NCBI RefSeq assembly: GCF_003261175.1
Contig: NZ_QLNP01000068.1
Coordinates: 18,227-82,226 of the forward strand
DNA length: 64,000 bases
Origin: Arthrobacter globiformis
GTDB lineage: Bacteria > Actinomycetota > Actinomycetes > Actinomycetales > Micrococcaceae
Direction of reading: 5' to 3'
Shown here: positions 1 to 56,476 of the stretch, piece by piece
Layout of the letters: the number at the start of each line of letters is the position of its first letter
Numbering within the stretch: the stretch's first letter is position 1
Translations under genes and position numbers: made by a program
The notes under the pieces: model-generated
Database searches by the model: none
What the model was told of the DNA's origin: nothing
Seen by the model: only the letters and a program-made list of their open reading frames with translations

Positions 1-2813
1 AGGGTGATGACGGAGTCGATGGCTTCTTCGTGGATCATGGCCAGGGCGCGGCGGTGGTGGCCCAGCGAGTCGAAGGCTCCGGCCTTGATCAGGGATTCGA
101 TGGTGCGCTTGTTGCACACCACGGCCGGCACCTTCATGAGGTAGTCCTTGAACGAGGTGTACGCGCCCTCGCTCGCCCGGGCTGCCACCATGGCCTCGAC
201 TGCGTTGACGCCGACGTTGCGGATGGCGCCCATGCCGAAACGGATGTCGTTGCCGACCGGGGTGAAATTCAGCGCCGACTCGTTAACGTCCGGCGGCAGC
301 ACGGTGATGCCCATGCGCCGGCATTCGTTGAGGTAAATTGCCGATTTGTCCTTATCGTCACCGACCGAGGTCAGGAGGGCGGCCATGTACTCCGGCGCAT
401 AGTGCGCCTTCAGGTAGGCGGTCCAATAGGAAATCACGCCGTACGCCGCCGAGTGCGCCTTGTTGAAGGCGTAGTCGGAGAAGGGCAGCAGGATGTCCCA
501 TAGAGTCTTGACGGCCTCCATGGAGTAGCCGTTGTCCTGCATTCCCTGCGAGAAGCCGGCGAACTGCTTGTCCAGCTCGGACTTCTTCTTCTTGCCCATG
601 GCACGGCGCAAAATGTCTGCCTGGCCCAGGGAATAGCCGGCCAGCTTCTGCGCCACGGCCATGACCTGTTCCTGGTAGACGATCAGGCCGAACGTTCCGC
701 CCAGGATCTCCTTCAGCGGCTCCTCGAGCTCCGGGTGGATCGGGATGACGTCCTGGATCTTGTTCTTGCGCAGGGCATAGTCGGTGTGCGCGTTAGCGCC
801 CATCGGTCCCGGACGGTACAGCGCCAGCACGGCGGAGATGTCTTCGAAGTTGTCAGGCTTCATGAGTTTGAGCAGGGACCGCATGGGGCCGCCGTCGAGC
901 TGGAACACGCCCAGAGTGTCACCGCGGGCCAGCAGCTCATAGGACGCCGCGTCATCCAGCTCCAGGGTTTCCAGGTCCAGGTCGACGCCGCGGTTCATCT
1001 TGATGTTTTCCAGGGCGTCCGAAATGATCGTCAGGTTCCGCAGCCCGAGGAAGTCCATCTTGATCAGCCCGAGGCCTTCAGAGGTCGGATAGTCGAACTG
1101 CGTGATGACCTGGCCGTCCTGGAAACGGCGCATGATCGGAATGACGTCGATGATGGGGTCCGAGGACATGATCACGCCGGCCGCGTGCACACCCCATTGG
1201 CGTTTCAGGCCCTCGATGCCCAGCGCGGTCTCGAAAACCTTGGCGGCCTCCGGATCCGTGCTGATCAGCTGCCGGAAATCCCCTGCCTCGCTGTAGCGCT
1301 TGGCGTCCTTGTTCTGAATGTCGGCAAGGGGAATATCCTTCGCCATAACCGCAGGCGGCAGTGCCTTGGTCAGCGTCTCGCCCATGCTGAAGGGGTAGCC
1401 AAGCACGCGGGAGGAGTCCTTCAGCGCCTGCTTGGTCTTGATGGTGCCGTAGGTGACGATCATGGCCACGCGCTCGTCGCCGTACTTGCGCGTCACGTAG
1501 TCGATGACCTCGGAGCGGCGCCGGTCATCGAAGTCGACGTCGAAGTCAGGCATGGAGACGCGGTCCGGGTTGAGGAAGCGCTCGAAGATCAGGCCGTGGT
1601 GCAGCGGATCCAGGTCGGTGATGCGCATTGCGTAGGCCACCATGGAGCCTGCACCCGAGCCACGGCCGGGACCTACCCGGATGCCGTTGTTCTTGGCCCA
1701 GTTGATGAAGTCGGCCACCACGAGGAAGTAGCCCGGGAAGCCCATCGAGGTGATGACTTCCAGCTCGTAGTCGGCCTGCTTGCGGACCTTGTCCGGAATG
1801 CCCTGGGGGTAGCGGTAATGGAGTCCCTTGTCGACCTCCTTGACCAGCCAGGAGGTTTCGTCCTCGCCCTCGGGGCAGGGAAACCGGGGCATGTAGTTGG
1901 CGCCGGTGTTGAAGGACACCTCGCACCGCTCGGCGATCAGCAGCGTGTTGTCGCAGGCTTCGGGGTGGTCGCGGAACAGCTCGCGCATTTCCTGCGGCGA
2001 CTTCAGGTAGTAGCCGCTTCCGGAGAACGCGAAACGGGAGCCGCCGTTGTCGTAGGTGGGTTCGAGCAGCGTCGAGCCCGACTGGATGGCCAGCAGGGCC
2101 TCGTGCGCCTTGGCGTCGTGTTCATGCGTGTAGTGCAGGTCGTTGGTGGCAACGAGGGGGAGGTTCAGGTCCTTGGCCAGCCGCAGGAGATCGCCGGTGA
2201 CGCGGCGTTCAATGTCCAGCCCGTGGTCCATGAGTTCGCAGAAGTAGTTCTCGGCGCCGAAGATGTCACGGAATTCCGCAGCGGCTTCCAGGGCCTCACG
2301 GTACTGGCCGAGCCGCAGCCGGGTCTGGACCTCTCCGGACGGGCAGCCCGTGGTGGCGATGAGCCCTTCTGAGTAGGTGTTCAGCAGCTCGCGGTCCAGC
2401 CGCGGCCACTTGCCGAACACCGAATCAAGGGAGGCGATCGAGGAGGCACGGAACAGGTTCCGCATGCCCACGTTGTTGTAGCTCAGCAGGGTCATGTGGG
2501 TGTACGAGCCACCACCGGAGACGTCGTCCTTGCGCTGGCTCTCCTCGCCCCAGCGGACGCGACTCTTGTCGCCGCGCGCAGTCCCGGGAGTCACATAGGC
2601 TTCGACGCCGATGATGGGCTTGACGCCCTTGTCGGTGGCCTTCCGCCAGAAGTCGAAGGCGCCGAAGAGGTAGCCGTGGTCGGTAGTCGCCAGCGCAGGC
2701 ATGCCGAGCCGCTCAGTTTCGTCGAACAGCTCACCGAGCCTGGCGGCGCCGTCCAGCATCGAGTACTCGGTGTGGGTGTGGAGATGTACGAACGAGTCAT
2801 TGCTGGAAGTCAC
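1..2813 (-). CDS. dnaE: DNA polymerase III subunit alpha, 3'-truncated by the window edge
   Basis: Replicative DNA polymerase catalytic subunit. The visible 937 residues cover the N-terminal PHP domain (HLHTHTEYS at residues 10-18, the first PHP metal-binding motif) and most of the polymerase core. The motif PDFDVDFDD at about 422-430 supplies two catalytic aspartates. The YRPGPM and GRGSGAGS motifs of bacterial alpha subunits are also present. The family is about 1,150-1,200 residues, so roughly the last fifth lies beyond base 1. The start is GTG at 2813; the nearby ATG is in another frame. It is the last gene of the long minus-strand block, 52 bases after the pseudouridine synthase, so it could be co-transcribed with lspA. 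A second alpha subunit (dnaE2 type) is less likely because the PHP motif is intact and the context is dnaE1-like. Confidence 0.96.
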
Positions 2814-2865
2814 CGGACCATTCTAGTGCCGACCCTCCGACAATTAGTGCCGGCGTGCCGCAGGC

Positions 2866-3792
2866 TCAGGCCCTGCCGGTGCCCAGGACTTCCAGGGCGT
2901 AGGCGAGGTCCGCGGGGTACTCGCTGGTCACAGTGACGCGTTCTCCGGTGCGCGGGTGGTCAAAGCCCAGTTCACGGGCGTGCAGCCACTGCCGGGTGAG
3001 CCCGAGGGTAGCGGCGAGCCGCGGGTCGGCCCCGTAGGTGAGGTCTCCGGCACACGGATGGCGGAGCGCGGCGAAATGGACCCTGATCTGGTGGGTCCTG
3101 CCGGTTTCCAGGTGGACCTCCACCAGGGTGGCCTTGCCGAACGCCTCAAGGACCTCGTAGTGCGTCACCGATGGCCGGCCGTCCTCAATGACCGCGAAGC
3201 GCCAGTCGTGGCCGGGATGGCGTCCGATCGGGGCGTCGATAGTGCCCTGCAGGGGATCCGGCAGCCCCTGGACCACCGCGTGGTAGACCTTGTCAACGGT
3301 GCGTTCCTTGAACGCCCGCTTGAGGGCGGTATAGGCGGGTTCTGTCTTGGCCACCACCATGACGCCCGAGGTCCCGACGTCGAGGCGGTGGACGATGCCG
3401 GCACGCTCGGCTGAGCCGGACGTGGAAATGCGGTAGCCGGCCCCGGCCAGTCCGCCGACGACCGTGGGTCCTACCCAGCCCGGGGACGGGTGCGCCGCGA
3501 CCCCCACCGGCTTGTCGACCACCACAAAGTCGTCGTCATCCAGCAGGATCTTCAGGCCTTCCACAACTTCCTCCACGACTTCAAGGGGATCCCGGCGTTC
3601 GGGGACCGTCACGTGCAACACGGCGCCGGACGCGAGCTTGGCGGACTTCCCCACCGGTTTGCCGCCGCTGACCACGTTGCCTTCGGCTATCAGCGTGGCG
3701 GCGGACGAGCGGGACATGCCCATCAGCTTGGCCAGGCCCGCGTCCACGCGGGCCCCGTCCAGCTCCTCGGGGACCACCACCCGCTCAGACAT
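2866..3792 (-). CDS. RluA-family 23S rRNA pseudouridine synthase
   Basis: Converts uridine to pseudouridine in rRNA; 308 residues, normal for RluC/RluD-type enzymes. An S4 RNA-binding domain occupies about residues 1-65. The catalytic HRLD motif is at 135-138 with the nucleophilic Asp138, followed by TSG. The C-terminal GRTHQIRVH signature is present. The ATG at 3792 overlaps the end of lspA by 8 bases; a longer reading frame exists but would sit inside lspA. The lspA-rluD-type-dnaE order is common in actinobacteria. The exact target uridine (RluD versus RluC specificity) cannot be read from sequence alone. Confidence 0.92.
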
Positions 3793-7867: not shown

Positions 7868-9100
7868 CTACTTCAGGAAATCGGGGACATCCAGGTCGTC
7901 AGACCGGCTGCCGGTCAGGTCAGGCTCAACCACCGACGGAAGGTCGACGTCGAAACCCGAGTCAGCAGGGACAGCGGAGGGGCGCTGCTGCCCCCAGCTG
8001 CTGAGACCTGCAGCGCCGACACCGGCGTGCACGGGCTGGACGTGGACCTGCTGGCTGCCCGCGGACGGCTGGCTCTGCGGGGCGGCCGTCGGAACGGCGG
8101 GCCGCTGCGGTGCAGCCTGCGGCTGCGACTGGTCCATGGACGGCGAGGTGGCCTTGACGTCGTCAAAGCCGGCCGCGATGACGGTGACGCGGGCTTCATC
8201 GCCCAGGGCGTCGTCGATGACCGCACCGAAGATGATGTTGGCCTCGGGGTGGGCGACTTCCTGCACCAGGCGTGCAGCCTCGTTGATCTCGAACAGTCCG
8301 AGGTCGGAGCCGCCCTGAATCGACAGCAGGACGCCGTGGGCACCGTCGATGGACGCTTCAAGCAGCGGGGAGGCGATGGCGAGCTCTGCTGCCTTGACAG
8401 CGCGGTCCTCGCCGCGCGCCGAGCCGATACCCATCAGGGCGGATCCTGCGCCTTGCATGACTGATTTCACGTCGGCGAAGTCAAGGTTGATCAGGCCGGG
8501 CGTGGTGATGAGGTCCGTGATGCCCTGCACACCGGACAGCAGGACCTGGTCAGCGGAGCGGAAGGCGTCCAGGACGGAGACGTTGCGGTCGCTGATGGAC
8601 AGCAGGCGGTCGTTGGGGATAACGATCAGGGTGTCCACCTCGTCGCGCAGGGCGTCGATGCCCGCCTCGGCGGAGCCTGCGCGGCGCCGGCCTTCGAAGG
8701 TGAACGGACGGGTGACCACACCGATGGTCAGGGCGCCAAGGGAGCGCGCAATGCGGGCAACGACAGGCGCGCCGCCGGTTCCGGTGCCGCCGCCTTCACC
8801 GGCGGTCACGAAGACCATGTCGGCACCGCGGAGGACTTCCTCGATCTCGTCAGCGTGGTCTTCGGCAGCCTGCTTGCCGACCTCGGGATTGGCCCCGGCA
8901 CCCAGCCCGCGCGTCAGTTCCCGTCCGACGTCGAGCTTGACGTCGGCATCGCTCATCAGGAGGGCCTGGGCGTCGGTGTTGATTGCAATGAATTCGACGC
9001 CGCGGAGACCCACCTCAATCATGCGGTTGACTGCGTTCACGCCACCGCCGCCGATGCCGACGACCTTGATGACGGCCAAGTAATTCTGCGGAGCTGCCAC
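7868..9100 (-). CDS. ftsZ: Cell division GTPase FtsZ
   Basis: Tubulin-like GTPase that forms the Z-ring. It has 410 residues. The GTP-binding tubulin signature GGGTGTGG is at 103-110, followed by the T7-loop region with NLDFADV. After the globular domain (about 1-315) comes a Gln/Pro-rich linker, and the protein ends in the conserved C-terminal peptide DLDVPDFLK that binds SepF and other partners. The start is GTG at 9100. The upstream 200 bases carry a TTGACA box and an AACCTT palindrome (separate entry), so ftsZ probably has its own promoter in addition to read-through from ftsQ. Confidence 0.98.
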
Positions 9101-10389: not shown

Positions 10390-11758
10390 CGAGGGACTCC
10401 ACGATGAGCGGCCCGTAGGCGGTGACGTCCCCTGCACCTGCGGTGAGGATGATGTCCCCCGGCTGCGCGGCGGCGGCCAGGGCGGCAACGGCCTCATCGC
10501 CGCCGACCAGGCCGCTGCCAGCGCCCAGATGCTCGGTGATGAGCGCGCTGGTGACGCCGGGGATGGGATCCTCGCGGGCCGGGTAGATGTCGAGCACCAG
10601 GGCAGTGTCCGCGGCCTTGAGTGCGTCGGCGAAGTCTGCGGCAAACTCCCGGGTCCGGGAAAACAGGTGCGGCTGGAAGAGGACGTGGACCTTGTGGTCG
10701 CCGGCCACGGACCTCGCCGCCGCCAGGGCTGCCCGCACCTCCGTGGGGTGGTGGGCGTAGTCGTCGTAGACCCGCACGCCCCGGCCCTCCCCCTTGTATT
10801 CGAACCGCCGCGACGCGCCGGAGAAGCCGGCCAGGGCCGAAGCAGCAGCCTGCGCGTCCACGCCGAGTTCGAGCGCTACTGCCATGGCGGCGGCAGCGTT
10901 CAGCGCGTTGTGCCGTCCGGGGACCTGCAGTGCCAGCGGGAACCGGCCGCCCGCCGTCGTAATGGCCACCTTGCCCGGGCCGCCGTCGTCGAGCCGGAGG
11001 TCGGCGGCGTCAGAGGTACCGTAGAGAACAACGCGGGTATTGCCCCGCTCGCGGGTGCGCAGCGCCAGGGCGTGCGCACCGGCGTCGTCCGCGCAGGCCA
11101 CCAGCACGCCGTCCGCCGGCAACAGCGCCGTGAAGTGGTCGAAGGATTCGTACACGGCTTCGGCGGTGCCGTAGTGGTCGAGGTGGTCCGGTTCCACGTT
11201 GGTGACGACGGCGATCTGCGGGCGGTAGTTCAGGAACGAACCGTCGGATTCATCCGCCTCGGCAACGAACACCTGGGAGCTGCCGTTCGCCGCGTTGACG
11301 CCGAGCGCCGGAACATTGGCGCCGATCGCGAACGACGGGTCCAGGCCTGCGCCCTGCAGCAGCACGGTGATCATGGACGTCGTGGTGGACTTCCCGTGGG
11401 TTCCGGCCACGGTCACCACGAGGTCACTGCCCATCGTGGCGGCCAGCGCTTCGGAGCGGTGCAGCACCGGCAGGCCGGCGGCCCGCGCGGCCTCGAGTTC
11501 GGGGTTGTCGGCGCGGATCGCCGATCCTGCCACGACGGTCTGGGCGTCGCCGAGGTTGCCGGCGTCGTAGCCCACGCAGATCCGGGCGCCGGCCGCGGCG
11601 AGCTCCTTCATGACGGGCAGGTCCTTCGCGTCCGTTCCGCTGACGGGAATCCCGCGCGCCACCATGATCCTGGCGACGGCGGACATGCCCACGCCCCCGA
11701 TCCCGATGAAGTGCACGCGGCCCAGTGCTTCCTGGCTGGGTGCTGCGTTGGTAGTCAT
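10382..11758 (-). CDS. murC: UDP-N-acetylmuramate--L-alanine ligase MurC
   Basis: Adds L-alanine to UDP-MurNAc, the first amino-acid step of peptidoglycan precursor synthesis. It has 458 residues with the three Mur-ligase domains. The N-terminal UDP-binding Rossmann motif is [11 protein letters not shown] (17-27), the central P-loop is [10 protein letters not shown] (about 120-130), and the C-terminal domain includes DDYAHHPTE. The ATG at 11758 overlaps the murG stop as ATGA; an earlier in-frame ATG lies inside murG and is unlikely. Confidence 0.97.
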
Positions 11759-21979: not shown

Positions 21980-22645
21980 CTACTGCCCCGGCGTCCGTTG
22001 CTCCGGCGCCGGAATGGTGCCGCCGTTAAGGGCCGCGGGCTTGGCCGCAGCCGCCGGCTCGGCCGGCTTCGCAGCAGCCGGGGCCTCCGGCTGGGCAGCT
22101 GCCGTTTCACCGGCAGCCGGGGCCCTGCTTTCCAGCGGCTCGCCTGAGCTGGCAGGCGGGACCACATTCAGCTGTCCCGGGACGGCAGGCGCGGCGATCA
22201 CCGCTCCTGCCGTGTCTCCCTTGACCGCCGGCTTGGCATCCCCGCTCACGGTCAGCGTGGAAAGATCAATTTGTCCCTTGCCGGTAGAAGCAACCATCCC
22301 CAATTGTGCGGCCTTGGCAGCCAGATTCTGGGGAGCCTCAAAGTTTTGCACCTGCTGTGTCAGGTCCTGGTTCTCTTTGGTGAGCTTGGTCTGTTCGGCA
22401 CGGAGCTTGACCAACTGGTACTGCGCTGTGGAAACAGTGATGTTGAGCACCAGCACCGCTATCAGCGCAGCCGCCAGCATGCCGAAGCAGAGAACAACGA
22501 AGGGCGCGCGGCGCTTCGCCGGTGCGGAGCGGACCAGGGACAGCGGGGTGCGAGCCTTGCGGGCCGACCCCGGAAGCCCGGCCTCTATGTCATGGACGCT
22601 GGGGCCGGACGGAAGGGCGAGGTTCCTGGCAGCTGCGGTGCTCAT
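21980..22645 (-). CDS. FtsL-position single-pass coiled-coil protein
   Basis: 221-residue protein in the place of ftsL between rsmH and ftsI. A cytoplasmic basic N terminus precedes one membrane helix (about 49-70). A short coiled-coil segment (about 75-105, [15 protein letters not shown]) follows. The remaining 110 residues are Ala/Pro-rich and probably disordered outside the membrane. Topology and position match FtsL of the FtsQLB complex, but sequence similarity in this family is poor and the tail is unusually long. The ATG overlaps the rsmH stop as ATGA. Confidence 0.8.
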
Positions 22646-23640
22646 ATTGCTCTCCTGGCTCTGATGCGTTCCACTGCGCGCAGCCGGGCTGATGCTGCGC
22701 GCGAATTCTCTGCGATCTCGACGGCGGTGGGCACCTCGGTGCCCTTGGTCAGGGTTTTGAGTTCGGCCTTGTGTTCTTCAAGCTCCACCGGGAAGCCGAG
22801 CGGAGCTGATGATTTGGAGCGGGTTTGGAAAACGCCCTTGACGATCTTGTCTTCCAGGGAGTGGTAGGACATCACGACGATCCGGCCGCCGAGCGCGATG
22901 GCATCCACCGCCGCAGGAACGGCACGCTCGAGGACTTCGAGTTCCTCGTTGACCTCGATGCGCAGGGCCTGGAAGGTGCGCTTGGCCGGATGTCCGCCGG
23001 ACTTGGCTGCGGCAGCCGGAACCACCGCCCTGATCTGCTCGACCAGCTCCCCCGTGGTGGTGAACGGTTTCGCTGACCGGGCGGCAACGATCCTGTTGGC
23101 GATGCGCCCCGCGAACTTTTCCTCACCCCACTTTCGGATAATCCTGACCAGTTCCTCTTCGCTGTAATTGTTAACGACGTCCGCCGCCGTCTGGCCACGA
23201 CTGGTGTCCATCCGCATGTCCAAGGGCGCGTCAAAGGAGTACGCGAAACCGCGTTCGCGCTCGTCGAGCTGCAGGGACGAGACCCCGAGGTCCATCAGGA
23301 TACCGTGGACCTCGGGAATGCCGAGGTCATCCAGCACCTCGGCGATTTCGTCGTACACAGCGTGGACCAGGTCCGTGCGGGCCGCGAAGGGTTTGAGCCG
23401 CTCGCCCGCCAGCGCCAGGGCTTCTTCGTCACGGTCGATGCCCACCAGGTGCAGGTCAGGAAAGCGCTGGAGCATGGCTTCGGAGTGCCCGCCCATGCCG
23501 AGCGTGGCATCAATGGCTACCGGCGTCTCACCGCGCAGGCGTGCTGCCTCAAATCCGGGCGCCAAAAGATTGATGCACCGGTCCTTCAGGACCGGTACAT
23601 GGCGTTCGGACGTGGGCTTCGGCTGGTCGGGTTCTGTCAT
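22642..23640 (-). CDS. rsmH: 16S rRNA (cytosine-1402-N4)-methyltransferase RsmH (MraW)
   Basis: SAM-dependent methyltransferase acting on C1402 of 16S rRNA; 332 residues. The SAM motif [13 protein letters not shown] is at 43-55, [14 protein letters not shown] lies mid-protein, and the C-terminal motif ISYHSLED-like MSYHSLEDK is present. The start is ATG at 23640 (MTEPDQ); the in-frame ATG 66 bases upstream lies in the structured leader and lacks family similarity. It is the second gene of the dcw cluster, after mraZ. Confidence 0.96.
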
Positions 23641-23684
23641 GCCTTCGTCCTTCCTTGAGCGCCGGGAATGATTCCTTGGGGGTG

Positions 23685-23794
23685 GTTTCTTGGGCCAGAT
23701 CCCCATCCGCGCCTATCCCGTTGGCTGCCTGGCTCCGGGGAAGTGAGCCAGGTAGTCGGCCGGGATGGGCGGCTGGAGATCTCGTCCAAGAAAC
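23685..23794 (-). promoter_or_regulatory. Long nested hairpin in the mraZ-rsmH leader (mraW-motif-like RNA)
   Basis: The 174-base gap between mraZ and rsmH folds on paper into one long irregular hairpin with five nested helices. They are 23685-23693/23786-23794 (9 bp), 23697-23704/23775-23782 (8 bp, one G.U on the minus strand), 23707-23710/23769-23772 (4 bp), 23715-23720/23761-23766 (6 bp) and 23728-23735/23745-23752 (8 bp, 9-base loop). All pairings are in register. An mraW RNA motif upstream of mraW genes has been described; membership is a guess from position. Confidence 0.65.
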
Positions 23795-23814
23795 GCAAAC
23801 GGGTTCGGGCCGGC

Positions 23815-24243
23815 CTAAAGGATGCCGGCGATGGGATTGTCAGTTTCAGAGAAGGAGGTTTCCTTCTCCGCCAGGTACTCACTCCAGGCTTGGGCGTCCC
23901 AGATCTCCGCGCGGGTGCCGGCGCCAATAACGGCCAACTCCCTGCCGAGCCCTGCATACTCCCGGAGCGCGGGAGGTATGGTCACGCGCCCCTGCTTGTC
24001 AGGTACCTCGTCCGAGGCTCCAGAGAGAAAAACCCGGATGTAGTCACGAGCGGACTTGTTGGAGATCGGAGCCTCCCGGATCTGCTCGTGTACCCTCGCG
24101 AATTCCTGCTCGCTGAAGACGTAGATGCAGCGCTCCTGGCCTCGCGTGAGAACAAGTCCGCCGGCCAGCTCCTCACGGAACTTGGCGGGAAGAATGATCC
24201 TGCCCTTTTCGTCAAGACGCGGCGAGTGTGTCCCAAGGAACAC
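23815..24243 (-). CDS. mraZ: Transcriptional regulator MraZ
   Basis: First gene of the dcw cluster; an AbrB-fold DNA-binding protein that forms rings and controls its own operon. It has 142 residues with two tandem SpoVT-AbrB-like halves. The first has [15 protein letters not shown] (about 10-24) and the second has LDxxGR-like [15 protein letters not shown] (about 81-95). The GTG start at 24243 is preceded by a G-rich site. Three GTGGRG repeats at 10-base spacing lie 65-90 bases upstream and are the probable autoregulatory operator. Confidence 0.95.
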
Positions 24244-24307
24244 GTCCCACCGCCCGTCTGCCGTCAGAAGCCGAACAACCCCCGCGCTGCCACTACCCTC
24301 TTACGCG

Positions 24308-24333
24308 CTCCACTTTACTCCACTTCTCCCCAC
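24308..24333 (-). promoter_or_regulatory. Three MraZ boxes upstream of mraZ
   Basis: On the minus strand GTGGGG (24333-24328), GTGGAG (24323-24318) and GTGGAG (24313-24308) recur exactly every 10 bases, one helical turn, ending 64 bases before the mraZ start. MraZ is known to bind direct repeats of this type in its own promoter. Confidence 0.75.
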
Positions 24334-24531
24334 AGTCAACGCGACGCGGGCAATTCCCTGCTACCGGAACGAACATGTTTCCGCGGAATGGCGGGGATTT
24401 CGCCCGAGGGTGGGAAGTGGAGGGAAATTGGGCCGCTCCGGCGGTGTCGGCCGGGCGGCATTGGCCCGGGAACATCGGCTTCGGGCACCAGGTCCGCGGG
24501 TCAACAGGCACAGTTCCCCGGGTTAAAGCGA

Positions 24532-30370: not shown

Positions 30371-32608
30371 GTGCAGGAAAACGCTCTAGGCAGTTTCGTT
30401 GGGTCGCTGGTGGACAACCGCTACCAGGTGAAGTCCCGGTTGGCGCGGGGCGGGATGTCCACCGTCTATGTGGCCACGGACCAGAGGCTGGACCGTGATG
30501 TTGCCCTGAAAGTCCTGCATCCCCACCTCGTCAACGACGGCAATTTCCTCGACCGCCTGGCCCGCGAAGCACGGGCGGCCGCAAAGCTCTCACACCCGCA
30601 CGTGGTGGGCGTCCTCGACCAGGGGCACGACGGAGACACCGCCTATCTCGTGATGGAGTACATCAAGGGGCACACCCTCCGCGACGTGATCAACAGCAAG
30701 GGCGCACTGTCCCCCCGGCTGGCCCTGGCACTCATCGATCCGGTGGTGGAAGGCCTGGGGGCTGCCCATGCCGCAGGCATGATCCACCGCGACGTCAAGC
30801 CGGAGAACGTCCTGATCGCCGACGACGGCCGGATCAAGATCGGCGACTTCGGGCTCGCACGCGCCGTGACAACCACAACCAGCACAGGCGCCCTGATTGG
30901 CACCATCGCTTACCTCTCGCCGGAACTGGTCCTTGGCAAAGCGGCCGACGCGCGAAGCGACATCTACGCCACGGGCATCATGCTGTTTGAGATGCTCACC
31001 GGACGCCAGCCGTTCGAGGGCGACGTCCCCATCCAGGTGGCATACCAGCACGTGAATTCCACTGTGGGCGCTCCCTCCGGCCTGGTTCCCGGGCTCGCCG
31101 AAGAGGTGGATGAACTCGTACTGTGGTGCACCGCCAGCGACCCCGAGCAGCGGCCGGTGGACGGCAACGCCCTGCTGGCGGAACTCCGCCACATCCGGAC
31201 CAACCTCACCGACTCCGAACTGGATCTCCAACCGCCTGCAGCCATTCAGGCGGCCGCGGCGGCGGGCACAGTCACCGACGCCGGCCCGCGCGGCACGGGC
31301 GCCCCGCCCGCACCTGCCCGGATGCCGTCCCGAATGCCGGGAAACCCGCCCGGCCAGGGAGCGCCGGGCGGCCCGGCACAGGGAAACCAGGCAAACCAAA
31401 CAGACCAGGGAAACCATACGGAGCTGCTGGCACCCATTCACGGGGATGACGTCCCCCAGGGCCGCCCCACCGAAGTCATTTCACGGACCAGCAACCCGAC
31501 CACCGTGTTTTCCTCCCCTGTCTCTCCACCGCCTGTCTCTCCAAGACCCGTCTCGCCAAAGTCCAGCCCGGTCCTCCCGTCCTACGAATTCGACGACGAC
31601 GAGGCGGAGGCGGCGCCGCTCCCCCTGAGCAAGCGGGAACAGCGGAAACTGGACCGCCACGAACAAAAGGAACGATCGCGCGCCGCGGCCACTCCCGTCC
31701 GGACGCTCCGGGAGGGCAATTCCCGCCGCAGGGGCGCGCTTTGGATTGTTGTCCTAGTGCTCCTCGCCCTCCTTGCCACCGGCGCGGGATGGTTCTTCGG
31801 CATGGGACCGGGCTCCCCCGGAACCGTGCCGGCCGTGGCGAACAGGACAGTGGCGGAGGCCCAGCAACTGCTCCGGGACACAGGCTTCCAGTCCAGCACC
31901 CAGGACGTATTCGATGACGACGTCAAGGCCGGCCTCGTGGTGGGATCCGAACCTGGCGCCGGAACGGAAATCCGCAAATTCCAGCAGGTCTCGCTGTTCG
32001 TCTCCAAGGGTCCGCAGCTGTTTCCCCTGCCGCAACTGACGGGCAAGACGCTCGATGCCTCCAAGGAAGCGCTTAACGGCGCCGAGATGGCGCTGGGTAA
32101 AGTCACCGAGAAATTCGACGAGGAGATCCCGGCAGGAACGGTCCTGGGCCAGGCCCCGGCTGCGGGAACGCCGGTGCGGCACGGCACGCCGGTGAGCCTC
32201 ACAGTTTCGAAGGGCCCGCAGCCCATTCCGGTGCCGGACGTGCGCGGACAGGACCAGGATGAGGCCGTCCGCTCGATTGAAGCTGCCGGCCTCAAAGCTG
32301 TGGTGGAGGACAAGACGGTGCACGACAAGAACATCCCGAGGGGGGCCGTGGTCAGCCAGGAACCTGCTTCCGGGACACTGACAAGGGGCCAAGCGGTCAC
32401 CCTGACGATTTCCGAAGGGCCCAAGCTCGTGAAGGTCCCCAGCTACATCGGCAAGCAGGTGGAAGACGCAGTTGAGGCACTGAGGAAACGCGGCTTCGAG
32501 GTTCGTGTGAACAACATCCTGGGTGGTTTCTTCGGCACGGTGCGGGACCAGGATCCCGTGGACACTGAGGTACCCGAAGGCTCCGTCATCACCCTGACCG
32601 TGGTGTAA
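30371..32608 (+). CDS. PASTA-domain serine/threonine protein kinase
   Basis: Membrane receptor kinase of the PknB/Stk family; 745 residues. The kinase domain spans about 18-280, with glycine loop ARGGMSTVY, Lys47, catalytic HRDVKPEN (Asp141), DFG 159-161 and activation-loop threonines TTTTSTGAL. A Pro-rich linker (about 290-445) leads to one membrane helix (about 454-476) and four extracellular PASTA domains (about 480-745) that bind muropeptides or lipid II. It occupies the pknL place beside Rv2175c and aroG homologues, but mycobacterial PknL lacks PASTA repeats. Likely substrates in the window are the Rv2175c-like protein, GarA and DivIVA. The start is GTG at 30371. Confidence 0.95.
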   Translation: MQENALGSFVGSLVDNRYQVKSRLARGGMSTVYVATDQRLDRDVALKVLHPHLVNDGNFLDRLAREARAAAKLSHPHVVGVLDQGHDGDTAYLVMEYIKGHTLRDVINSKGALSPRLALALIDPVVEGLGAAHAAGMIHRDVKPENVLIADDGRIKIGDFGLARAVTTTTSTGALIGTIAYLSPELVLGKAADARSDIYATGIMLFEMLTGRQPFEGDVPIQVAYQHVNSTVGAPSGLVPGLAEEVDELVLWCTASDPEQRPVDGNALLAELRHIRTNLTDSELDLQPPAAIQAAAAAGTVTDAGPRGTGAPPAPARMPSRMPGNPPGQGAPGGPAQGNQANQTDQGNHTELLAPIHGDDVPQGRPTEVISRTSNPTTVFSSPVSPPPVSPRPVSPKSSPVLPSYEFDDDEAEAAPLPLSKREQRKLDRHEQKERSRAAATPVRTLREGNSRRRGALWIVVLVLLALLATGAGWFFGMGPGSPGTVPAVANRTVAEAQQLLRDTGFQSSTQDVFDDDVKAGLVVGSEPGAGTEIRKFQQVSLFVSKGPQLFPLPQLTGKTLDASKEALNGAEMALGKVTEKFDEEIPAGTVLGQAPAAGTPVRHGTPVSLTVSKGPQPIPVPDVRGQDQDEAVRSIEAAGLKAVVEDKTVHDKNIPRGAVVSQEPASGTLTRGQAVTLTISEGPKLVKVPSYIGKQVEDAVEALRKRGFEVRVNNILGGFFGTVRDQDPVDTEVPEGSVITLTVV

Positions 32609-41824: not shown

Positions 41825-41945
41825 GGCTTCCGCTCTGTTTCGTGCCGGCTGCCGGTTGGGTTACGGCAGCCAGTGTGGTTCGGAAACGGCTGTGGGGGCG
41901 GCTTGGCGCCGTCCCCCACAACCTTATTTTCTGTCTACCACCCTA

Positions 41946-41976
41946 CCTGCAGGGCGGCCGCCGGCCGCCCTGCAGG
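41946..41976 (-). terminator. Long GC-rich hairpin downstream of pyc
   Basis: Perfect 15-base arms (41946-41960 and 41962-41976) around one central base, 62 bases past the pyc stop, in the gap before the MinD-like gene. There is no U-tract. It is a likely terminator or mRNA end structure. Confidence 0.6.
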
Positions 41977-42037
41977 CTATTCAGCGGCGATCCAGCCGCC
42001 AGTCAAGTGCTCAGCAGCCGTCTTTTCGACCGCCGTT

Positions 42038-45800: not shown

Positions 45801-46622
45801 GTGCAAGTAGTCAGCATCAGCAGCCTCAAGGGCGGTGTCGGCAAGACATCCGTTACAACCGGACTGGCGTCTGCGGCACTGGCCGCAGGCATCCCAACCC
45901 TCGTAGTGGACCTCGATCCCCATGCCGACGCCAGCACAGCCCTCGGCGTGCAGCCCAGCGACAAGCTGGACATCGGCAGGATGCTGAAGAATCCGCGCAA
46001 GGCCAAGATCGCCGAGAACGTCGTGCCCAGCGGCTGGATCAGCCGGGCAGCCGTCAACGGTTCCGGTCCGGCGGTGCTCGATGTCGCCGTCGGGTCCGCG
46101 TACACCGGTATCTACGACCGGCCGGACCTCGGCAAGCGCGATTTGCGCAGGCTGTCCGCGGTGCTGTCCGGCGCGGATGCCTATGAACTCGTCCTGGTGG
46201 ACTGCCCGCCGTCCCTGAACGGCCTGACCCGCATGGCCTGGTCGGCCAGCAACAAGGTGGCGCTGGTGGCCGAGCCCGGGCTCTTCTCCGTGGCCGGCAC
46301 TGAGCGCACCATGCGGGCCATCCAGCTTTTCCGGCAGGAATTCGCGCCGAACCTGTCCCCCGCCGGCATCGTGGCCAACCGCGTGCGCTCCGGATCCTCC
46401 GAGCACGCGTTCCGGCTTGCCGAAATGCAGGCCATGTTCGGCGACCTCCTGCTGGCTCCGCACATCCCGGAACAGGCCAACTGGCAGCAGATCCAGGGTG
46501 CGGCGCACTCCGTCCACCACTGGCCCGGGGACTCCGCGAAGACCGCGGCCGGCCTCTACGACACGCTGCTGGGAAATCTCCTCGCCAGCAACAAGACCAG
46601 CCGCAGCCGCAGCGCCCGGTAA
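45801..46622 (+). CDS. ParA-family ATPase
   Basis: 273-residue soluble deviant-Walker ATPase. Walker A is LKGGVGKTS (9-17), the switch I region is DLDPHADAST, and Walker B is LVLVDCPPSLNGL. It lacks the N-terminal extension of the chromosomal ParA at 58054 and has no adjacent parB. The GTG at 45801 (MQVVSISS) is preferred to an in-frame TTG 12 bases upstream. A very similar gene precedes the resR-like gene in related Micrococcaceae as far as I recall; the role is unknown, possibly positioning of a cell-pole or division component. Confidence 0.85.
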   Translation: MQVVSISSLKGGVGKTSVTTGLASAALAAGIPTLVVDLDPHADASTALGVQPSDKLDIGRMLKNPRKAKIAENVVPSGWISRAAVNGSGPAVLDVAVGSAYTGIYDRPDLGKRDLRRLSAVLSGADAYELVLVDCPPSLNGLTRMAWSASNKVALVAEPGLFSVAGTERTMRAIQLFRQEFAPNLSPAGIVANRVRSGSSEHAFRLAEMQAMFGDLLLAPHIPEQANWQQIQGAAHSVHHWPGDSAKTAAGLYDTLLGNLLASNKTSRSRSAR

Positions 46623-46658
46623 GCGCGGCCCCGGTTACCGGGCCCTGCCGCATGCAGA

Positions 46659-46688
46659 AGGCCGCCTCCCCGACGGGAGGCGGCCTTT
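46659..46688. terminator. Bidirectional terminator between parA-like and resR-like genes
   Basis: Perfect 13-bp stem (46659-46671 with 46676-46688), loop CGAC, followed by TT on the plus side and by TTCTGC on the minus side, between convergent genes. Confidence 0.85.
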
Positions 46689-46712
46689 TGCGTATTCTCG
46701 TGGCTGGCGCCG

Positions 46713-47309
46713 CTAGCCGATCTTGCGGGCCGCGCGGCGCTTGCTGAGTTCGTCGTCCGGGAACGTCTGTTCGCCGGCATGCTCGCTGGGCAGCGAGGCG
46801 AGGCTCCCCTCGACTTCGCGCCACACGCGGCCCACGGCGATGCCGAACACGCCCTGGCCGCCCTGCACGAGATCGATAACCTCGTCCGCGGAGGTGCATT
46901 CGTAGACGCTGGCGCCGTCGCTCATGAGGGTGATCTGGGCCAGGTCCTCGACACCCCGTTCACGGAGGTGCTCCACGGCACTGCGGATCTGCTGCAGCGA
47001 TACGCCGGTGTCCAGCAGCCGCTTGACGACTTTCAGGACCAGGATGTCGCGGAACCCATACAGCCGCTGGGAACCGGAGCCGGCTGCGCCACGGACTGCA
47101 GGCTCCACCAGGCCGGTGCGGGCCCAGTAGTCGAGCTGCCGGTAGGTGATGCCGGCGGCCTTGCAGGCAGTGGGGCCGCGGTAGCCGGCGTCCTCATCCA
47201 GAACCGGGAGATCCTCAGTGAAGAGAAGGCCCTGAGCACCGCTTGCGGGCACGGCAACGCCGGCCGTCGAGGGTTGCTTCAGCTCGCCTGCTTCGCCTTT
47301 CGGACTCAC
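46713..47309 (-). CDS. MerR-family regulator, Rv1830/ResR-like
   Basis: 198 residues. The MerR winged helix starts near YRGPTACKAAGITYRQLDYW (about 43-62) and contains RTGLVEP and SQRLYGFRDILVLKVVKRLLD. A C-terminal helix and effector-less tail follow. The GTG at 47309 is set by AAGGAGG six bases upstream. Position after a bifunctional nuclease, FtsR, GarA and GcvH matches Rv1830, which in mycobacteria influences growth and division genes. The 252-base upstream region carries AACCTT-type repeats that are candidate sites for it or for FtsR. Confidence 0.9.
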   Translation of the reverse strand: MSPKGEAGELKQPSTAGVAVPASGAQGLLFTEDLPVLDEDAGYRGPTACKAAGITYRQLDYWARTGLVEPAVRGAAGSGSQRLYGFRDILVLKVVKRLLDTGVSLQQIRSAVEHLRERGVEDLAQITLMSDGASVYECTSADEVIDLVQGGQGVFGIAVGRVWREVEGSLASLPSEHAGEQTFPDDELSKRRAARKIG

Positions 47310-55255: not shown

Positions 55256-56476
55256 TTACAGCCCCACGGATGCCAGCAGGTGGCCGACTTCCTGCTTGCC
55301 GAGGTTGCGGATGCTTCCCTGGCGCTGGTCACCGAGGCCGATGGGGCCGACCTTGACGCGCACCAGGCGCAATACCGGGAACCCGACGGCGTCGAACAGG
55401 CGCCGGACAATGCGGTTCTTGCCGGAGTGCAGCACCACTTCGATCAGGACATGGCCCGGGGTCGAGTCGACCAGCCGGAAGGAGTCGACCGAGGCGAAAC
55501 CGTCCTCAAGTTCGATGCCGTCCTTGAGCTGCGCGCCGATACCCTGCGGGAACGGCCCGCGGACCTGGACCAGGTAGGTCTTGGGGACCTCGTAGGACGG
55601 GTGGGTCAGCCGGTTGGCCAGCTCGCCGTCGTTGGTCAGCAGCAGCAGGCCCTCGGTGGCGACGTCGAGGCGCCCGACGTGGAAGAGCCGTTCGCCCTGG
55701 TTGTTGCGGATGTAGTCGCTGATGCACGGCCGGCCTTCGGGGTCCTCCATGGTGGACACCACGCCCTTGGGCTTGTTGAACACCATGTAGACCAGCGTGT
55801 CATCCAGCTGGATGCGCAGGCCGTCCACGTGGATGACGGCGGTCTTGGGATCGACGCGTACGCCGAGCTCGGTGACGACCTTGCCGTCGACCTCAACGCG
55901 GCCCTCGGCGATCATCTCTTCGCAGACGCGGCGGGAGGCGACGCCGGCGGAGGCCATGACCTTCTGCAGGCGGACGCCGTCGGCGTCGTGGACTTCGGAC
56001 TGCGGCACCTCGGCGCGCGGACCGCGGGTGCGGGAGGGCCGGCGGACCGGCCCCAGGTTCTTGCCGAAGCGTTCGCTGCCGAAGGCGCGCGAACCCGCGG
56101 CCTTGGGGGCGCCCGACTTGGGCTTCAGCGCGCCGGGGGTGCCGGGGGCCCTGTTCGCGCCGGGCTTCCGGGCGGCGGCGGCATTGCGTGCGCCGGTATT
56201 GGGTGCACCTGTCCTGGCTGCGGGGGCCTTGGCGCCCCCTTTCCAGTCACCGGCGGGCCGCCGGCCAGCGGGTGCCTCGTCTGGGTCGACGAAGCGCTCC
56301 TCGCGGGGCTTGGCCTTGTAGGTGCGGTCGCCGAAGGGGCGGTCACCGCCCTGGGGGAAGTCGCGCTTCCCGGCGCCCGCGCCGCGGCCTTGTGCCGCGC
56401 CGCGCGGAGCGTTGCGATCCGGACCTTTACGTCCGGAGCTGTTACGTGGTGAACCCTGGCGTCCCGCCTGTGTCAT
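55256..56476 (-). CDS. RluB/RsuA-family pseudouridine synthase with long low-complexity N terminus
   Basis: 406 residues. The first 160 are Gly/Ala/Pro/Arg/Lys-rich and unlikely to fold, with many RPxG-type and AP repeats. An S4 domain (about 168-230) and the RsuA/RluB catalytic domain follow, with Asp268 in HVGRLDVATEG. The C terminus has SGKNRIVRRLFDAVG. The target is probably the 23S rRNA position modified by RluB, but RsuA/RluE specificity cannot be excluded. It is next to scpB, a pairing conserved in actinobacteria and firmicutes. Confidence 0.92.
   Translation of the reverse strand: MTQAGRQGSPRNSSGRKGPDRNAPRGAAQGRGAGAGKRDFPQGGDRPFGDRTYKAKPREERFVDPDEAPAGRRPAGDWKGGAKAPAARTGAPNTGARNAAAARKPGANRAPGTPGALKPKSGAPKAAGSRAFGSERFGKNLGPVRRPSRTRGPRAEVPQSEVHDADGVRLQKVMASAGVASRRVCEEMIAEGRVEVDGKVVTELGVRVDPKTAVIHVDGLRIQLDDTLVYMVFNKPKGVVSTMEDPEGRPCISDYIRNNQGERLFHVGRLDVATEGLLLLTNDGELANRLTHPSYEVPKTYLVQVRGPFPQGIGAQLKDGIELEDGFASVDSFRLVDSTPGHVLIEVVLHSGKNRIVRRLFDAVGFPVLRLVRVKVGPIGLGDQRQGSIRNLGKQEVGHLLASVGL

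Follow-up and report, generated by a model that had tools for sequence, protein, structure and literature searches.

What does a long RNA hairpin do between mraZ and rsmH (mraW)? The question is raised by the minus strand of a 64,000-nt stretch of Arthrobacter globiformis DNA, here termed the window. In most of the actinomycete loci compared, mraZ and rsmH head the dcw operon, and a leader conserved throughout the class would be expected to exert control over division and wall synthesis. The mraW motif has been listed since 2010, with table entries of 'y' for RNA, 'y' for cis-regulatory and '?' for switch (Weinberg et al. 2010, PMC2864571), and the passage on it in PMC5640933 states that its function 'remains unknown'. 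What appears to be new from the sequence comparisons is the prevalence of a CUUCCCC hairpin before rsmH, a double form of that hairpin, the failure of three simple mechanisms, and the attachment of the element to rsmH.

All features of the locus lie on the minus strand. The upstream gene, mraZ (23815-24243; GTG start), is an ORF of 142 aa, at which two MraZ Pfam repeats are found in the genome. The downstream gene, rsmH (22642-23640), has a Pfam PF01795 match; its ATG at 23640 follows AAGGAAGGA at 23656-23648, and several same-genus relatives align from residue 1 of this start. The gap from the mraZ stop at 23815 to the rsmH ATG at 23640 folds at -82.5, as compared to a shuffle mean of -64.2 (z -4.28; 0 of 200 shuffles equal). 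Within it, the 110 nt at 23794-23685 have a minimum free energy of -67.9 kcal/mol. The original prediction, made from the letters of the window, had described a nested hairpin with helices of 9, 8, 4, 6 and 8 bp, about 70 of 110 bases paired, and a 9-base loop closed by the innermost helix. The minimum-energy fold and the shuffle comparison bear out the five-helix nesting, and the fold reproduces the 9-base loop, ACTTCCCCG, adding one weak pair that closes it further. The helix lengths required correction, as the second helix is 9 bp and the third 4+2 bp (giving 9, 9, 4+2, 6 and 8 bp, plus several short pairs), and the fold pairs 86 of the 110 bases.

From the outside inwards, the outer helix joins GTTTCTTGG (23786-23794) to CCAAGAAAC (23685-23693) and covaries in relatives (alignment columns 26-35). 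The conserved closing helix joins AGATCTCCA (23774-23782) to TGGGGATCT (23697-23705), in which GGGGA is invariant or at least 90% conserved among 51 family sequences. This helix contains a nearly fixed U.G pair, which is UG in 49 and UA in 2 of the 51 family sequences and, class-wide, UG in 117, UA in 20, CG in 11 and other in 3 of the 151 distinct stems scored. The middle helices place CCGC, CC and ATCCCG (23761-23772) opposite CGGGAT, GG and GCGG (23707-23720), with the 4+2 bp formed by 23772-23767/23713-23707 and the 6 bp by 23766-23761/23720-23715; in relatives, the CCGC/GCGG section is conserved and the 6-bp section variable. At the tip is the apical hairpin, or head (23728-23752; CCTGGCTC-ACTTCCCCG-GAGCCAGG), with an 8-bp stem (23752-23745/23735-23728) that covaries class-wide and the loop core CTTCCCC at 23743-23737. 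The interrupted stem beneath the head spans ~30 bp. The element ranks with the strongest hairpins of the window without being the first of them, its stability being rare and not unique: a minimum free energy of -67.9 or lower occurs in 14 of 5,810 pieces of 110 nt taken on both strands of the 64 kb in steps of 22. Equally or more stable 110-nt stretches lie at 46577-46750, 31243-31396, 41867-42000, 10453-10562, 8031-8140 and 56321-56430.

By its sequence and predicted structure, the hairpin is an mraW RNA, a member of a known actinobacterial RNA family (Rfam RF01746). Membership had been suggested together with a search by the Rfam model, and that search returned a full-length match (model positions 1-107) at 23677-23798 with 52.0 bits and an E value of 4.1e-8, just 2 bits above the curated cut-off of 50. 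It is the sole match in this genome. The likeness extends to the position upstream of rsmH, the single long stem and the conserved apical loop, where the family's ACUUCCCC is represented by the ACTTCCCCG of the window in the cmscan alignment. At E of 0.001 or lower, RF01746 has matches in 140 of 149 family genomes and in 188 of 296 genomes across the class, both sets having been searched under stricter filters that lose weak matches. A phylum-wide draw gave matches in 11 of 198 genomes, ten in the class and a weak one outside it; the latter (G582, locus L322; 28.4 bits) is taken as a chance match, its 3.1-kb locus containing no rsmH. In one genus (code g15; for example G003, G159 and G274) the element, being nearly palindromic, is matched by the model on its opposite strand as well.

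The motif is reported as transcribed in the data on it from Corynebacterium glutamicum (PMC3890552), where it is assigned at cg2377 (PMC4046766), and from C. diphtheriae (PMC5784534). In the former, an mraW 5' end reported as a start site maps to 2,266,932, within the motif at 2,267,021-2,266,916 (PMC3890552); in the latter, the motif is placed upstream of the mraW start site (PMC5784534). As these 5' ends fall inside or after the motif, some rsmH transcripts are made without it. The msiK RNA and other actinobacterial leader motifs with no assigned ligand are likewise entered as predicted cis-regulatory leaders in the motif lists of PMC2864571 and PMC5784534; they precede other genes, and the likeness is one of listing.

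The arms of the hairpin are kept far outside the species, and the structure is, on comparative grounds, evidently under selection. From 71 loci of family f1 (probably the Micrococcaceae; f25, considered below, is probably the Streptomycetaceae), 60 clean automatic matches were obtained, of which 51 were aligned. In these, 92.6% of cells pair and 23 of the 31 pairs change on both sides, a compensatory pattern equalled in 0 of 500 shuffles (double-sided cells, 214 versus 65 in shuffles; pairs, 23 versus 14.4). When the partner is shifted by one column, pairing falls to about 51%. The covariation named as a check in the original prediction is thus present, and its further question of whether the arms persist outside this species is answered in its favour. 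The loop core CTTCCCC is invariant in this alignment, whose rows were chosen by a loop with at most two mismatches to ACTTCCCC.

Beyond the family, 296 rsmH loci were collected by mixed routes (181 by an Rfam match, 19 for the lack of one, 6 by a double-head pattern and 90 through rsmH alone, some of these from newly sampled genomes), and the proportions of leaders with a head or a double head given here are therefore not population frequencies. With near-identical leaders counted once, 276 distinct leaders remain. A CTTCCCC hairpin precedes rsmH in 248 of these at 7 or more of 8 pairs and in 257 at 6 of 8. By route, the latter comprise 180/180 Rfam-matched leaders, 12/19 with no Rfam match, 61/73 found by rsmH alone and 4/4 found by the double-head pattern. 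Permuted loop cores gave 0-5 hairpins at 7/8 and 0-15 at 6/8 in 19 of 20 controls; the remaining core, CCTTCCC, overlaps the real loop, alone exceeds 5 at 7/8 or 15 at 6/8, and was set aside. Class-wide, 92-94% of the cells of the apical stem are paired in every one of the three loop types, as compared to 71-79% when shuffled; the stem registers were picked for good pairing, and the paired share is inflated accordingly. A side observation concerns one pair of the head, the fourth or fifth below the loop, which is G-C, A-U or A.C; the last is found in 51 of 177 distinct heads, and G.U hardly occurs there. This recurrent mismatch could reflect a protonated A.C pair or separate selection on the two strands.

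The RF01746 consensus contains one hairpin. Among relatives, a double-headed form is observed that is missing from the model and appears, from the leaders compared, to be new: two CUUCCCC hairpins carried in one closing stem. It is likewise not mentioned in the published passages on the mraW motif and RF01746 that were consulted. Two such hairpins occur in 7 of 19 rsmH loci from genomes with no Rfam match (L191, L192, L194, L196, L198, L199 and L200). Over the 276 leaders, two are present in 15 at 6/8 pairs and in 12 at 7/8, the 15 comprising 2 with an Rfam match, 7 lacking one, 3 found by pattern and 3 by rsmH alone. Extra hairpins around the 19 control cores number at most one at 6/8 and none at 7/8. 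A raw second CTTCCCC is found in 26 of 276 leaders, and one or more copies of the reversed word CCCCTTC in 28; as these counts are similar, only the hairpin-loop criterion separates real second heads. When 13 double heads were folded, nine formed two separate hairpins inside one closing stem (L132, L191, L192, L200, L209, L217, L220, L283 and L301), with the loop core partly paired in some. In L103, L194 and L198 the similar heads pair mutually instead, and L299 has two heads with the usual closing stem missing.

A search of named genomes for CTTCCCC..CTTCCCC..GGGGAYCTG returned 51 loci. Of these, 36 lack an rsmH detectable by tblastn and were excluded from the count; in each of the 15 that have one, the pattern precedes it by 10 to 243 nt. 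The 15 belong to two Citricoccus, a Micrococcus, Ornithinicoccus halotolerans, Arthrobacter sp. 11W110_air, a Sphaerisporangium, a Sporichthya and eight MAGs bearing higher-rank names, and several are evidently the same sequences as loci already coded. The first copy is half paired in the fold of the Sphaerisporangium form. An earlier pattern search had yielded 30 loci, of which 24 were dropped as places unlike rsmH leaders, judged from the listing. On a FastTree phylogeny of 290 RsmH proteins, 29 of its rows being double-headed, the double form requires at least 16 state changes and makes up 17 all-double clades; the tree is a quick one, some of these clades lie close together, and the count is blind to gain versus loss. 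In L198, L194 and L416 the adjacent heads are identical or nearly so, which suggests recent tandem duplication.

A fixed loop that is repeatedly doubled in relatives points to a binding site for a putative partner molecule. The most probable reading, with the grading applying mostly to the trans-acting ligand, is that the mraW RNA is a leader read in trans by a putative factor that sets expression of rsmH and the dcw operon. If so, the reaction sequence would likely involve: transcription of the element with the dcw operon as a structured cis-acting leader of rsmH; presentation of the apical hairpin by the conserved closing stem; recognition of the CUUCCCC loop by the putative factor, most likely an RNA-binding protein; and, upon binding, adjustment of the amount of rsmH and downstream dcw product made from an mRNA that also carries mraZ. 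The spacing of the element bears on how binding might act. In the window, the element ends 36 nt short of the rsmH ATG. Among the leaders of 148 distinct stems, the distance from the mraZ stop to the element has a median of 34 nt (quartiles 21-49), and that from the element to the rsmH start is greater and spreads more widely (median 85, quartiles 58-140, range 4-316); duplex tests drew on 124 leaders and closing-stem counts on 151. Given this spread of 4 to 316 nt before the rsmH start, and as pairing with the Shine-Dalgarno (SD) sequence was looked for and not found, an action on transcript elongation, processing or stability would be favoured over direct SD masking. The terminator scan gave no match at the element to an intrinsic terminator or attenuator (GC-rich hairpin followed by a T run).

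Two alternatives would place the partner of the loop within the locus itself. The element could be a direct translational switch, in which the loop CUUCCCC or the CUCC of the 5' arm pairs with the rsmH SD and masks it; the 5' arm does hold an anti-SD-like UCUCC or CCUCC, and the SD of the window, GGAAGG, could pair with the loop CUUCC. However, the rsmH SD shows no enrichment in loop complements (GGAAG 8%, GGGAA 5% and GGGGA 14% of 276 leaders, versus 10%, 8% and 27% in the mraZ SD of 248), and duplexes between own partners are no better than swapped ones (5' arm with SD, z +1.3; loop with SD, z -0.7; n=124), whereas the hairpin arms used as positive control give z -24. Start codons in these tests were chosen by script, not annotation. 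Coevolving complementarity was thus found for neither a loop-SD pseudoknot nor a 5'-arm anti-SD, and a direct switch is very improbable. Still less credible is binding of the loop or arms to MraZ as feedback at the RNA level. The element adjoins mraZ in most genomes, and 14 of 18 leaders of the MraZ-less genus g30 have lost the loop hairpin; against this, all 26 leaders of the other genera found MraZ-less by Pfam search (g307, g308, g314, g315, g318 and g319) keep the CUUCCCC hairpin, and g116 has MraZ with the element missing. Within 420 nt upstream of rsmH, the hairpin is thus present in 30 of 44 MraZ-less genomes (26/26 outside g30, 4/18 inside), with duplicate genomes counted once, MraZ status assigned by genus, and five genomes with matches of 22.5-26.1 bits, some just above the Pfam cut-off of 23, counted as MraZ-less. 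The persistence of the hairpin in these genomes largely refutes MraZ as the loop ligand, and the element goes with rsmH, independent of MraZ.

The other alternatives dispense with a loop ligand. One possibility, though an unlikely one, is a processing site, at which cleavage of the long stem by RNase III or some other nuclease splits the mraZ and rsmH mRNA into parts that reach different amounts. The ~30-bp interrupted stem below the head would suit such an enzyme, and RNase III reportedly cleaves the mraZ coding mRNA, in work attributed to Maeda in 2016. That cleavage is mentioned in PMC8247434 and listed in PMC7761207, in the passages that touch on it. The C. glutamicum 5' end inside the motif could be a product of such a cut, but it was reported as a start site (PMC3890552); processing also leaves the conserved CUUCCCC loop and the loop-keeping second heads unexplained, and the hairpin remains where mraZ is gone. 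The same end, with that of C. diphtheriae within or just after the motif (PMC3890552, PMC5784534), would fit a DNA element that merely resembles an RNA hairpin, either a protein-binding dyad or an internal rsmH promoter. The overall counts of GU and AC are nearly balanced as well (67 to 60 in the apical stem, 213 to 136 in the closing stem), with no clear GU excess, which is odd for an RNA helix. A DNA element is nonetheless improbable, more so than processing: many positions covary with several pair types, GU outnumbers AC by 52 to 2 among the printed types at apical pairs 2-3, and the arm spacing varies. In addition, the promoter scan of 23500-24450 gave a single match, the likely mraZ promoter upstream of that gene (TTGACT-16-TAAAGT, 24312-24339, 9/12 matches). 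GTGG-type repeats at 24333-24308 are, by resemblance, candidate MraZ boxes.

Taken together, the fixed loop word, the repeated doubling of the head and the exclusion of MraZ and the SD as partners narrow the search to a trans factor. The leader read in trans may be extended, tentatively and at slightly less than even chance, to a modular, multivalent landing site for a putative actinomycete RNA-binding factor that reads CUUCCCC and is not MraZ; lineages would have doubled the head repeatedly as if tuning valency, and the factor would link the ribosome-modifying rsmH and the cell-division operon to a signal. Proteins of the CsrA/RsmE type read multi-hairpin RNAs with a short fixed loop word, at times repeated over several hairpins. 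That word is GGA, as opposed to CUUCCCC here, and no such protein is implicated, making this a mere resemblance. The original prediction had proposed control of the dcw operon beyond mraZ. Synteny with rsmH is compatible with this putative control; its direct translational forms, with the SD paired to the loop or 5' arm, are unsupported.

Several further candidates were rejected. Pairing of the loop with a nearby stretch would require its complement GGGGAAG; between -600 and +600, this word is present in 0-2% of leaders in any 100-nt bin. At -800 to -600, GGGGAAG-like words rise to 5% and their six-letter parts to 16%, with the reversed control higher, at up to 9% and 28%. Mimicry of the 16S 3' tail, seen by eye as a partial likeness (UCACCU), was dropped, the stem letters concerned varying among relatives. 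Inside rsmH, within the codons for HVPVLKDRC, a perfect hairpin around ACCGGTCC-TGAA-GGACCGGT with a T-rich tail (23600-23573) resembles an attenuator; it is found in 6 of 8 same-genus leaders and is not conserved further. Within the family, this region folds no better than its synonymous recodings (mean z 0.07, n=70), and in the rest of the class its mean z of -0.34 (n=206) falls inside the range of other offsets (-0.36 to -0.03).

The element is dispensable, as reflected in its absence from six genomes of g116 and its retention in 4 of 18 leaders of g30. This, the rsmH transcripts made without it and the near balance of GU and AC each tell against the leader read in trans. The six g116 genomes (L182, L183, L184, L186, L187 and L188) have mraZ and rsmH without it; four of their leaders measure 90-107 nt and the others 214 and 268 nt. 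Weak Rfam matches occur in a further two g116 genomes. Some g30 leaders (L307, L320 and L353) retain the closing stem with a different loop. At L178, positions 1029-3490 contain mraZ, the element, a truncated rsmH (query residues 8-200), a second element and a full rsmH; the element and rsmH were possibly duplicated together, or this may be an assembly artefact. In family f25, ten genera have MraZ (46 genomes, strong matches) and the hairpin is present in 24 of 24 leaders examined. In many leaders of this family, such as L329 and L337, a second CTTCCCC, by eye unpaired, lies between the head and the 3' arm.
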